Shown here one piece after another: positions 10,500 through 15,165 of a stretch of 35,835 bases of DNA (the first letter of the stretch is position 1; every line of letters starts with the position of its first letter). The notes beneath the pieces were generated by a model that was not told the origin of the DNA, made no database searches, and worked only from the letters and a program-made list of their open reading frames with translations. Where the stretch lies: contig DQIP01000222.1 of the NCBI GenBank assembly GCA_020793565.1, positions 1-35,835 on the forward strand, written 5' to 3'. A program made the position numbers and the translations under genes. The stretch is from Candidatus Methanovorans sp. (GTDB lineage Archaea; Halobacteriota; Methanosarcinia; Methanosarcinales; Methanosarcinaceae).

Positions 10500-11714
10500 A
10501 TGACAGCAACTCATGATGTAGACATGGAAAAAATGGTAGTTGTTGAAGGATCGTATTCGGTCGCACATGCGGTAAAGGTATGCAGGCCCAATGTGATCTC
10601 TGCATATCCTATCACCCCTCAGACCCATATCGTAGAAGACCTATCCCAGTTCATGGCAGATGGCGAGATACCAGGCTGCGAATACCTCAATGTTGAATCG
10701 GAATTCTCCGCCATATCGGCACTTGTAGGTGCATCGGCCGCAGGCGCGAGAACCTATTCGGCAACAACATCACAGGGACTTGAATTAATGCACGAGGTCC
10801 TGTTCAATGTTTCAGGTATGCGCCTGCCTGTTGTTATGACAGTAGTAAACAGGGCAGTCAGTGCACCCATTAATATCTGGAACGATCACCAGGATTCAAT
10901 CTCCCAGCGTGATACCGGCTGGATACAGTTGTATGCAGAGGATACACAGGAAGCGGCGGACATGACTGCACAGGCGTTCAAGATCGCTGAGGATAAGGAT
11001 GTGCTCATGCCTGCAATGGTCTGTATGGATGGTTTCATATTATCACATGTGTATGAGCCGGTCGTCCTGCTTGAGCAGGACCTGGTAGACCAGTATCTTC
11101 CGACATTTGATCCTGAGTTCGTGCTTGATCCGAAGAACCCGATGAGTTTTGGTGCGTTTGCAGATCCATCCACCTATACCGAGTTCCGGTACCTTCAGGA
11201 GAAGGCAATGGGTGTGGCACTTCGTAAGATAGAAGATGCTGCAAACGAGTTCAATGAGATTTTTGGCAGGTACTATGGTGGGTTAATTGAAGAGTATAAT
11301 ACCGAGGATGCCGAGATCATTATCATGGCAATGGGTTCGATTATCGGTACGCTCAAGGATGTAATTGATGCACACAGCAGCAAAGGTGAAAAAATCGGGC
11401 TTGTTAAGGTCAGGTCATTCAGGCCGTTCCCAAAATTTGAGATCAAAAAAGCTCTCAAAGATGCAAAGATGGTTGTAGTGCTGGATAAGAATATATCAAT
11501 TGGATTGAACGAGGGTGCATTATTCACCGAGACCAAGGCATGCCTGTATAATACGCACATAGATGTTCCGGTTGCAGGATACATGATTGGTCACGGGGGG
11601 CGTGATATTCCCGTAAGCACGATCGAGAAGATCATTGACGAGGCAAAGGCTGCGATGAAAACAGGTATTGATATTGAAAGCCAGTTCACAGATTTGAGGG
11701 AGGAGTTGCTATGA
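10500..11714 (+). CDS. porA: Pyruvate:ferredoxin oxidoreductase, alpha subunit
   Basis: Alpha subunit, carrying the pyrimidine-binding transketolase-like domain and a C-terminal domain. The 404 residues fit the family. Recognisable segments are [35 protein letters not shown] near 35-50, [20 protein letters not shown] with the conserved glutamate, [14 protein letters not shown] and the C-terminal [18 protein letters not shown]. The last four bases (11711-11714) overlap the porB start (ATGA). It acts in the cytoplasm as part of the porGDAB complex. Confidence 0.96.
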
Positions 11715-12607
11715 GTCCGGAGTTAAAGTCTAAGCCAAAGTCATTGTTAGCCCCCGGACACAGGGGATGTGCCGGATGTTGTGACGCAATGGCTGCAAAG
11801 TTCACATTGATGGCAGCAGGCGAGGACTGTATTGTGATCAATCCGACAGGATGCCTTGAAGTGATGACAACACCATACCCCGAATCCGCGTGGGAGGTCC
11901 CCTGGATACATTCCCTGTTTGAGAATACGGCTGCGGTTGCATCAGGAATTGAGGCAGCACTCAAGGCTAAGGGCACAATCGGAAAGACAAAGATCATTGC
12001 GATAGGAGGCGATGGTTCAACACTCGATATCGGAATACGGTCAATATCCGGTGCTTTTGAACGTGGACACGATTTTACGTATGTGTGCATTGATAATGAA
12101 GCATACATGAACACTGGTGTACAGCGAAGCGGCGCAACACCGTTCGATGCATCGACGACCACAAGTCCGGCCGGCAAGGTGTCGTTTGGTAACCAGCGTC
12201 CGAAGAAGAACATGCCTGCGATCATAGCCGCACATGGTTCCCCATATATTGCGACAACTTCGATAGCATACCCAAAGGATATGATCCGCAAGGTGAAGAT
12301 CGCGAATGAGACAGTTGGACCTACTTATATCCATGCACATGCCCCGTGTACGACAGGATGGGGATTCGATACTTCAAAGACAGTGGAGATTGGGAAACTG
12401 GCTGTTGAGACTGCACTGTGGCCAATGTTCGAGATGGAGGACGGCGAGATCACAAAGGTCAGGAAGATCAAGAACCCAAAACCTGTTGAGGATTATCTCA
12501 AGATGCAGCGCAGGTTTAAGCATCTCTTTTCTATGGAAGGCGGAGAGGAAGAGATCAAGAAGATCCAGGCGATCGCTGATAAGAATGTGGTGGATTTCGG
12601 GTTGTGA
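11711..12607 (+). CDS. porB: Pyruvate:ferredoxin oxidoreductase, beta subunit
   Basis: Beta subunit, holding thiamine diphosphate and the proximal [4Fe-4S] cluster. In its 298 residues I see the cysteine motif [11 protein letters not shown], a further cysteine in [10 protein letters not shown], and the thiamine-diphosphate/Mg motif [10 protein letters not shown] leading to [20 protein letters not shown]-like [17 protein letters not shown] and a C-terminal cysteine-free tail complete it. Last gene of porGDAB; a T8 tract 16 bp after the stop probably ends the transcript. Confidence 0.96.
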
Positions 12608-12630: not shown

Positions 12631-12656
12631 ATTTGAAGTTTTTGTGGTGGATTTAA

Positions 12657-13145
12657 TTATCTTTCAGCACACACCATCGCAATCTCTGAATTTGATATCA
12701 AGAAAGCGCTTTTTGTAAAAGGACTCAGTAAATATGCCAGATCAGAAAAAGATTTTGCGATTCGTCCTTTTACGGCTCCTATGATCAAAGGGTTATCCAT
12801 ATCTCCCATTAAAGAGCGTGAATCGGTTTTTAGCCCAAAACATTCCTTTTTATAGGCATATGCAAGACCGATTTCTACGCATGCTCCTTCATCAGGCACC
12901 CTTCCATCCATAACAAAGACAACAAGATCACAACTTTTTATGATTTCTTCGTCTTTCTGAAATATCATTTGTATTGCTGTACGTTCCTCAATACCATTGT
13001 CTATCAATTCTGACAACAAATGCCCGTCTTGTTGTGGTAAAAATGTATCAAAGCCAATATTTTTCAAGAATTCATTTAGTTTAACATTGAATTCCAATTC
13101 TGACTTTGAGAAAAGTGGACCAGCTATGTAAACAGTTTTTTTCAT
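12657..13145 (-). CDS. Nucleoside 2-deoxyribosyltransferase family protein
   Basis: Predicted to cleave or exchange the N-glycosidic bond of 2'-deoxyribonucleosides (or deoxynucleotides). The 162 residues begin with the family motif VYIAGPLFS (about 5-13), followed by CDLVVFVMDGRVPDEGACVEIGLAYA near 72-97, where D80 and catalytic-position E91 are in place. No signal peptide or membrane segment. The ATG overlaps the end of the HD hydrolase gene by 4 bp, so the two are translationally coupled. The base composition is visibly more AT-rich than the flanking por and nth genes, consistent with transfer. Whether it acts in salvage or in defence is unknown. Confidence 0.85.
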   Translation of the reverse strand: MKKTVYIAGPLFSKSELEFNVKLNEFLKNIGFDTFLPQQDGHLLSELIDNGIEERTAIQMIFQKDEEIIKSCDLVVFVMDGRVPDEGACVEIGLAYAYKKECFGLKTDSRSLMGDMDNPLIIGAVKGRIAKSFSDLAYLLSPFTKSAFLISNSEIAMVCAER

Positions 13146-14320
13146 TTATATCTCCTCTTTACCCTATCTGGAATGGTAATTTTATTGAACATAAATTCAA
13201 AATATCTATCTGTCATTCCCGCTATATAATCTCTTACTATTTCAGCTGGTGATGCTTCTTCAAAATACTCTGGCGCAACCCAATCCAAATTTATCATATC
13301 TGAGTATATGAAAGACTCTTTATTTTTATTCTCTAAATCTTTTAAGAACTTATTGAAAATAGTACCATACATATGTTCAATCTTCTCAGATTCCTTCATA
13401 AGCAGGGGGTTATGATATATGTATTTTTCATTAAACTCATAGAAATCATGGACACATTTTGATACGTTATCGGAAAACGATATGGTATTTTTCCCAAAGC
13501 TGTTATTTATGACATCCTTAATTAACGTATCTAATACCGCCCAATTGATCTCTTTTACATCACTTATACCAAATAAGTCAATGCAGTTTTGTGGAAAATC
13601 ATCCAAATCTTGTATTATGTTTACTTCCAAAGCATCCTGCAAATCACGTCCTAAATACGCAATCGTATCAGCAATTCTTACGACGCATCCTTCAATAGTC
13701 ATGGGACATATATCTTTTTTCAATTTTATGCCTTCAATTTTTGACTGAAATGACTCCCAACTCATATCTCCATATGGTTTTAGACTTTTGCCGTGTACCC
13801 CTCCATTATGACAAAGAATACCATCTAAAACTTGAATCGTAAGGTCACAATCTTCGATAACGTCAAGAAATTGAATGCTTTGAACATTGTGCAAAAATTT
13901 TCCAATACCATTTTTCTCACAAAGGTCACTTAGTATTTTCTCTCCAAAGTGGCCATATGGTACATGCCCGATATCGTGGCCAAGTGAAATCGCTTCGATT
14001 AAATCCTCGTTAAGACTAAGGGATCGACCTATTGTTCTCGCTATTTTTGAAACAAGTTGCACATGAAGTACACGATGGGTTATATGATCATTATCCACTA
14101 AAAAGAAAACTTGTGTTTTATCAATATATCTCGCATACGCCCTCGAATGGATTATTCTATCGCCATCCCTGTAGAACGGTGGGCGAATAATGGGCTCTTC
14201 ATGTTTCATTTGTTTTCTTCTTAAATACTGTGAATTTTTAGTTGCTATGGGTGCATATAGATCTTCTTTGCCACATATTATATCATCAATATTAGTTAGC
14301 AAATTTTCTTTTATTTCCAT
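13142..14320 (-). CDS. HD-domain dGTP triphosphohydrolase-like protein
   Basis: Predicted to hydrolyse deoxynucleoside triphosphates to deoxynucleoside and triphosphate. The dGTPase signature is clear: RDGDRIIHSRAYARYIDKTQVF-like opening near 51-72, H82 in THR, the HD pair H115-D116 in LGHDIGHVPYGHFGE, HNVQSIQFL near 144, and the last metal ligand D218 in RIADTIAYLGRD. The length (392 aa) fits the family. SD GGAGAAGG precedes the ATG. It overlaps the downstream deoxyribosyltransferase by 4 bp; the products of the first enzyme (deoxynucleosides) are the substrates of the second. AT-rich compared with its neighbours. Substrate base preference cannot be read from sequence. Confidence 0.88.
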   Translation of the reverse strand: MEIKENLLTNIDDIICGKEDLYAPIATKNSQYLRRKQMKHEEPIIRPPFYRDGDRIIHSRAYARYIDKTQVFFLVDNDHITHRVLHVQLVSKIARTIGRSLSLNEDLIEAISLGHDIGHVPYGHFGEKILSDLCEKNGIGKFLHNVQSIQFLDVIEDCDLTIQVLDGILCHNGGVHGKSLKPYGDMSWESFQSKIEGIKLKKDICPMTIEGCVVRIADTIAYLGRDLQDALEVNIIQDLDDFPQNCIDLFGISDVKEINWAVLDTLIKDVINNSFGKNTISFSDNVSKCVHDFYEFNEKYIYHNPLLMKESEKIEHMYGTIFNKFLKDLENKNKESFIYSDMINLDWVAPEYFEEASPAEIVRDYIAGMTDRYFEFMFNKITIPDRVKRRYK

Positions 14321-14493
14321 AATCCTTCTCCTCTTTTTTGTACTGTAAATAATACTACATCGTACTTAAGTTATTGGAAAGCGGAGTGAAAGTATTCATT
14401 TATCTATCTTTTTATCAAAGATATTATGAAGATAAGAAGATATAGGAAAAGTAAGTTCAATAGTATAAAAGAACATTGAGGGATATATTGTCA

Positions 14494-15165
14494 ATGAACT
14501 CAAAAAACAAAACAAAAGGTATCGAAAACAATACCCATAATTTCGACCGGATCTGGTCATTACTCCAGGCTGAATACCCTGATGCAGCCCCGGAACTGCA
14601 TTTCAGCAACCCTTTGCAAGTTCTTATCGCTACCATACTCTCGGCGCAGTGTACTGATGCGCAGGTCAACAAGGTTACAGGTGTCCTGTTCAAAAAATAT
14701 CGTAGCGTCGGGGATTTTGCAGATGCGGATCTTCGTGAACTGGAAAAGGATATCTATTCCACAGGTTTTTACAGGAACAAGGCAAAGAACATCAAGAAAA
14801 GCGCCCAAATGATCATCTCTGATTTTGATTCACACATCCCGGACACAATGGAGACTATTCTCACGCTTCCCGGGGTTGCCAGGAAGACCGCAAATATCGT
14901 GTTGGCAAGGGGATACGGTGTCATTGCGGGGATCGCTGTTGATACCCATGTAAAAAGGTTATCCAAACGACTCGGTTTTTCCGGGCACACCGATCCTGTG
15001 AAAATAGAAAAAGATTTAATGGATATTGCCAGAAGAGAAGACTGGGAAGCCCTGTCCATGACGTTGATACTCCATGGGCGCAGGGTGTGTGTTGCACGAA
15101 AACCAAAATGTGGGGCATGTGTCGTGAGTATATTGTGCCCGTCAAGATATGGCAATGAACAATAG
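14494..15165 (+). CDS. nth: Endonuclease III (DNA glycosylase/AP lyase)
   Basis: Base-excision repair enzyme that removes oxidised pyrimidines and nicks the abasic site. The 223 residues carry ILSAQCTDAQVN near 48-59, the helix-hairpin-helix LPGVARKTANIVLA with catalytic Lys131, the catalytic Asp150 in AVDTHVKRL, and a C-terminal [4Fe-4S] loop with exact CX6CX2CX5C spacing (CVARKPKCGACVVSILC). I chose ATG 14494, with GAGGG upstream; an in-frame TTG at 14476 would add six residues. The 3' end overlaps the channel gene by 17 bp. Confidence 0.95.
   Translation: MNSKNKTKGIENNTHNFDRIWSLLQAEYPDAAPELHFSNPLQVLIATILSAQCTDAQVNKVTGVLFKKYRSVGDFADADLRELEKDIYSTGFYRNKAKNIKKSAQMIISDFDSHIPDTMETILTLPGVARKTANIVLARGYGVIAGIAVDTHVKRLSKRLGFSGHTDPVKIEKDLMDIARREDWEALSMTLILHGRRVCVARKPKCGACVVSILCPSRYGNEQ

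Follow-up and report, generated by a model that had tools for sequence, protein, structure and literature searches.

Two genes of a Candidatus Methanovorans contig, one encoding a dGTPase-like enzyme and the other a nucleoside 2-deoxyribosyltransferase (NDT), lie together between two core genes, and raise the question of whether an archaeon carries a unit that dismantles dNTPs in two steps, and what purpose such a unit would serve. The window, meaning the whole stretch of DNA analysed, is 35,835 nucleotides long. The features relevant to this question are as follows.

11711..12607, plus strand: 2-oxoacid:ferredoxin oxidoreductase beta-like gene (POR-beta), flanking core gene, in 7/7 genus genomes
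12635..14527, no strand assigned: accessory segment between POR-beta and nth, from blastn against the G005, G002, G001 and G003 loci
12657..13145, minus strand: predicted NDT, 162 aa, downstream gene of the unit (Pfam PF05014, 2.7e-21)
13142..13145, minus strand: 4-bp stop/start overlap of dGTPase and NDT, from the ORF coordinates
13142..14320, minus strand: predicted HD-domain dNTP triphosphohydrolase, dGTPase-like, 392 aa, upstream gene of the unit (Pfam HD and HD_assoc)
14476..15165, plus strand: endonuclease III-like gene (nth), flanking core gene, matched in 6/7 genus genomes

Both reading frames and their overlap are as the initial annotation described them, and the overlap, which recurs as the same -4 spacing at paired loci L088, L091 and L097, suggests translational coupling. 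The pair was also correctly said to be AT-rich against its neighbours: its GC content is 33-35%, versus 45-50% for most flanking genes, and GC3 is 0.29 in both genes, the lowest in the window (0.35-0.53 in the remaining tested genes). Codon usage, measured against the window's own genes, divides the pair, with the dGTPase gene the most deviant in the window (z=11) and the deviation of the short NDT gene not significant (z=1.3).

Predicted reactions of the two enzymes

The first protein belongs to the HD dNTPase families PF01966/PF13286, above the Pfam cut-offs, and matches the PADLOC dGTPase model at 164 bits; against the anti-phage dGTPase model NF041026 it scores 102 bits (102.4), far under the curated cut-off of 400. 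The closest solved structure, by both sequence and fold, is the Thermus thermophilus dNTPase 2dqb (TM 0.72/0.80), for which allosterically activated hydrolysis of all four dNTPs is reported (PMC12186491). The HD metal site (H...HD...D) is present as H86, H115, D116 and D218, and the catalytic His/Glu dyad (H126/E129 in CloA numbering) as H124/E127; all of these, together with H82, are invariant among 23 homologues. From its family and intact active site, the first gene is predicted to encode a dNTP triphosphohydrolase, which would convert dNTPs, probably several beyond dGTP, to deoxynucleosides and triphosphate.

A second dGTPase, ~53% identical, is encoded in the same genome, its gene apparently divided between the ends of two contigs (G000:C170, L101:9969-11003, and G000:C176, L102:6930-7112), and no NDT was found with it. 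An RNase III-like gene adjoins its C-terminal piece, and IS630-like transposase ORFs are located near its N-terminal piece.

The second protein falls in the nucleoside 2-deoxyribosyltransferase families PF05014/PF15891, again above the Pfam cut-offs, and its closest structure in sequence and fold is the Desulfotalea psychrophila NDT 7o62 (E 3e-29). The nucleophilic Glu (E91) and supporting Asp residues (D80, D85) are present and, with Y6 and N118, are invariant in nine pair-type sequences. An identity as a dNMP N-glycosidase (DNPH1/Rcl, BlsM, MilB) was rejected, since DNPH1 reaches only E ~0.2-0.9 versus 3e-29 for 7o62 and also ranks lower by fold. The second gene is predicted to encode a deoxyribosyltransferase working at the deoxynucleoside level. 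A dNTPase yields a deoxynucleoside (PMC12186491), and the NDT is nearest to deoxynucleoside-level enzymes; the first enzyme would thus supply the substrate predicted for the second. Glu91 would attack the deoxynucleoside C1', releasing the base, and the NDT would then transfer or hydrolyse the deoxyribosyl group.

The same two steps could instead sanitise the pool, taking damaged or non-canonical deoxynucleotides (e.g. deaminated or oxidised) to the nucleoside and then to the base. NDT-superfamily enzymes such as DNPH1 perform sanitising at the monophosphate level, and the adjoining nth is a base-excision gene. However, the position of nth is ancestral and does not depend on the pair, and no repair neighbour is common to the other paired loci; sanitising is considered a very improbable function.

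NDTs are also found in other arrangements. The sole NDT found in two solo-dGTPase genomes is a fusion behind an N-terminal domain (L238:477-1322, L239:348-1193), which in L239 weakly resembles 2-thiouracil desulfurase. Two actinomycete plasmids carry an NDT gene together with epimerase and HAD hydrolase genes in an operon of the QueD/QueE/QueC-like type (L259:1228-6917, L260:1000-6875), perhaps a deazapurine nucleoside pathway.

The initial annotation assigned the NDT the task of making dNTP loss irreversible, and this is not borne out. A search covering two families of deoxynucleoside kinase, PF01712 and PF00265, returned no protein above cut-off in the host and nine genomes with related dGTPases, and no DeoC was found in the ten genomes; controls were positive in both cases. 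PNP-family proteins are present in all ten. As no PF01712 or PF00265 kinase was found, deoxynucleosides appear to be a dead end in any case, and the task of the NDT would therefore be to recover the base or clear the deoxynucleosides, not to make the loss irreversible. Where known deoxynucleoside kinases and DeoC are lacking, the useful outcome of the two steps would be that the base is recovered and the deoxynucleosides are removed.

A co-inherited pair at a variable site

A survey of the two families shows that the arrangement is recurrent, as the initial annotation anticipated. At 18 distinct loci, dGTPase and NDT genes are adjacent on one strand, with the NDT at +1 and gaps of -55 to +120 bp. 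When all genes within four positions are considered, the NDT is the sole gene recurring near paired dGTPases, so the adjacency goes beyond chance. A maximum-likelihood tree groups all pair-type NDTs in a single clade (100/100), clearly distinct from a second, core NDT; most of the order carries this core NDT, and the genome of the window has it too, at a different locus. Pairwise distances of the dGTPase and NDT correlate (Mantel r 0.92), a value that 0/5000 permutations reach. The two genes are a genuine co-inherited unit, and an old one. Separate recruitment of an NDT in each clade is disfavoured by the single pair-type clade and by distances that mirror those of the dGTPase.

The pair is not a universal core feature, as the dGTPase is matched in 28/100 relatives and the pair in fewer. 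Across the phylum, 73/394 sampled genomes encode a dGTPase of this family, most of them solo. A pair conserved throughout the order, vertically inherited and with ordinary codon use, which by the initial annotation's own standard would have refuted its reading, is not what is observed. Solo orthologues separate the paired genes of the dGTPase tree into three clades, one of which includes a paired sequence from Altiarchaeota (L038); this suggests wide transfer. Patchy distribution and horizontal mobility of the pair are supported.

The insertion site points the same way. By blastn, the window aligns to sister genomes up to 12634 and again from 14528, with other genes in between. The POR-beta/nth interval carries a different AT-rich gene in G005 and G001, and genes for ATPase_2/DUF234, DUF3800 and repeat-like proteins in G002 and G003; the ATPase matches a PADLOC candidate-defence model. 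This interval is an accessory-gene hotspot of the genus, in which the AT-rich genes differ per species (L252, L253, L255, L256) and include some encoding 431-550 aa proteins of no known family. A viral origin of the pair was considered and rejected. No relatives of either protein occur among viral contigs. In phages, the matches are distant NDTs, most of them from Lactococcus phages, and remote dGTPases. The pair was not found in any phage or archaeal virus, and no record is common to the two protein searches.

The two genes do not decay alike. In about five lineages, the dGTPase is broken or lost and the NDT remains open. The active-site region of the dGTPase is missing in G002, the C-terminal part is missing in G084, only the ~25 last residues remain in G006, and the gene is broken or absent in G096; in G097 it is partial, and in its relative G065 the loss is complete. 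The NDT is intact in every one of these genomes, some of which are fragmented assemblies, so that single cases could be artefacts. Two related genomes (L099 and L241) preserve stages of dGTPase loss beside an aroA-like gene, with the NDT kept. The reverse also occurs: G003 lacks the NDT beside an insertion-sequence-like gene, and the NDT of L089 (G082) has an internal stop codon. In most comparisons, orphan NDTs included, NDT dN/dS is 0.06-0.15; the closest comparison, L099-L241, gives 0.54 on very few changes, and that of L088 with L089 was discarded as an artefact of the in-frame stop. By these ratios, purifying selection on the NDT persists once the dGTPase is lost.

Virus restriction or pool control

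The explanation that we tentatively prefer, at somewhat less than an even chance, is that the pair is a mobile two-step module for dNTP-to-base catabolism, an accessory dNTP drain whose role is most likely antiviral. Such a drain would be carried and lost like defence genes, and would most likely hold back the replication of viral or mobile-element DNA. Frequent loss of the dGTPase beside an intact NDT fits a costly effector. Retention of the NDT after that loss argues against this explanation, as it indicates that the NDT has value without the dGTPase.

Defence by dNTP depletion, the function put forward in the initial annotation, is therefore upheld in part. The genes do form a functional pair that is AT-rich, patchy and mobile; on the other side stand vertical solo orthologues and the fact that no enrichment of defence genes has been demonstrated. 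Defence genes do occur near the pair: a type I methyltransferase and a PADLOC candidate PDC-S02 protein at L033, a broken HsdM and a PDC-S02 protein at L088, a type II methyltransferase at L036 and AbiEi-AbiEii at L092. The solo-dGTPase control also has defence matches, mainly to repeated PD-T4-6, along with Mza and a nicking endonuclease. In the PADLOC tallies, which list the top families, generic models dominate, and the paired and solo counts are too small to weigh against each other. The presence of restriction-modification and AbiE genes near the pair is thus suggestive, with no excess over the solo control demonstrated. No inducible or sensing domain was found for the pair, which counts against a defence role, as do the low NF041026 score of the dGTPase and the fact that no virus carrying the pair was found.

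It is also quite possible, though again doubtful, that the pair performs ordinary control of the dNTP pool coupled to base salvage, in which the dNTPase would trim excess dNTPs and the NDT would free the base for phosphoribosyltransferases, with no part in defence. Mobility would then reflect dispensable metabolism. The solo dGTPase orthologues, which lack an NDT, are vertical and conserved in context in several archaeal families, and this favours control of the pool over defence. In Caulobacter, a dNTPase acts in cell-cycle control and leaves phage sensitivity unaltered (PMC12186491), and a Borrelia NDT is reported to serve purine salvage (PMC2764106). Base recovery would be a plausible gain where no known deoxynucleoside kinase or DeoC is present, and the selection maintaining orphan NDTs fits salvage. 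However, patchy occurrence, low GC, a variable accessory-gene site and frequent dGTPase decay are unusual for core metabolism, and a core NDT and PNP-family enzymes are already present in most relatives. As to purpose, the evidence is nearly balanced between virus restriction and pool control combined with base salvage.

A more specific proposal, which we consider unlikely, is that the pair is an undescribed archaeal defence system in which the dNTPase drains dNTPs and a dedicated NDT breaks down the deoxynucleosides, putting them beyond recovery by viruses that bring kinases of their own; related NDTs would do a similar cleaning beside bacterial SIR2-AAA proteins.

Should the two steps be linked in vivo, the pair would be a self-contained dNTP-to-base pathway travelling between archaea, and archaea would have a form of dNTP depletion, which is known in bacteria and animals, with a second step built in. 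Comparing vertically inherited solo dNTPases with mobile paired ones would allow one to examine directly when an enzyme of pool control turns into a defence effector. Even plain salvage would assign a role to a recurrent, undescribed archaeal gene pair.

Comparison with known systems

A search of the available literature found no description of the dGTPase-NDT combination. The nearest two-gene dGTPase system is Clover, in which the partner is different. Clover (the dGTPase CloA with CloB) and the pair have in common a two-gene, dGTPase-centred unit with an accessory distribution (PMC12265719). CloB, however, makes p3diT, whereas the partner here is a PF05014 deoxyribosyltransferase and not a CloB-type nucleotidyltransferase, and CloA, at ~470 aa, aligns poorly with the window dGTPase (TM ~0.6, 19% identity).

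Clover nonetheless provides a model in which the NDT would regulate the dNTPase or make a signal for it, the part that CloB plays for CloA. The architecture, a dGTPase with a small nucleotide-handling partner, is the same (PMC12265719), and NDT-fold partners or effectors recur in conflict systems, including the accessory protein of retron Eco1 (PMC8989520) and plasmid SIR2-NDT pairs. Unlike CloB, however, the NDT is no nucleotidyltransferase, its catalytic residues are invariant, dGTPases without an NDT exist, and NDTs outlast the dGTPase; regulation by the NDT is improbable.

The NDT-like domains of retron accessory proteins or effectors (Eco1, Eco9, Sen2) are a further likeness, being NDT-fold proteins inside a conflict system (PMC8989520). 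The protein in the window differs in standing alone, with catalytic residues intact and neither a reverse transcriptase nor a DNA-binding domain. On bacterial plasmids (Eleftheria, Rhizobium), NDT relatives of 38-45% identity overlap the end of a SIR2-AAA gene by 4 bp; in L262:2274-4432 and L263:2373-4486, this gene encodes a SIR2_2 protein whose C-terminal region is AAA/kinase-like. These are possibly an undescribed conflict pair. The SIR2-linked NDTs sit on long branches of the tree, in no firm position, so they are a parallel to the archaeal pair rather than evidence of kinship.

Taken singly, the dGTPase has in common with Dgt/SAMHD1-type enzymes (TT1383/2dqb, E. coli Dgt and the Shewanella anti-phage dGTPase) the HD fold, the metal and catalytic H/E residues, and the predicted reaction. 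Unlike these enzymes, it is archaeal and genetically coupled to an NDT, and it scores far under the NCBIfam cut-off set for the anti-phage dGTPase. The NDT has the fold and the catalytic Glu, Asp and Tyr motifs of 7o62 and the Chroococcidiopsis NDT, but at ~32% identity it belongs to a separate clade with the motif DGRVPD-x-GAC-x-E and, unlike those NDTs, the pair-type NDT adjoins a dNTPase or a dNTPase remnant in nearly all cases.
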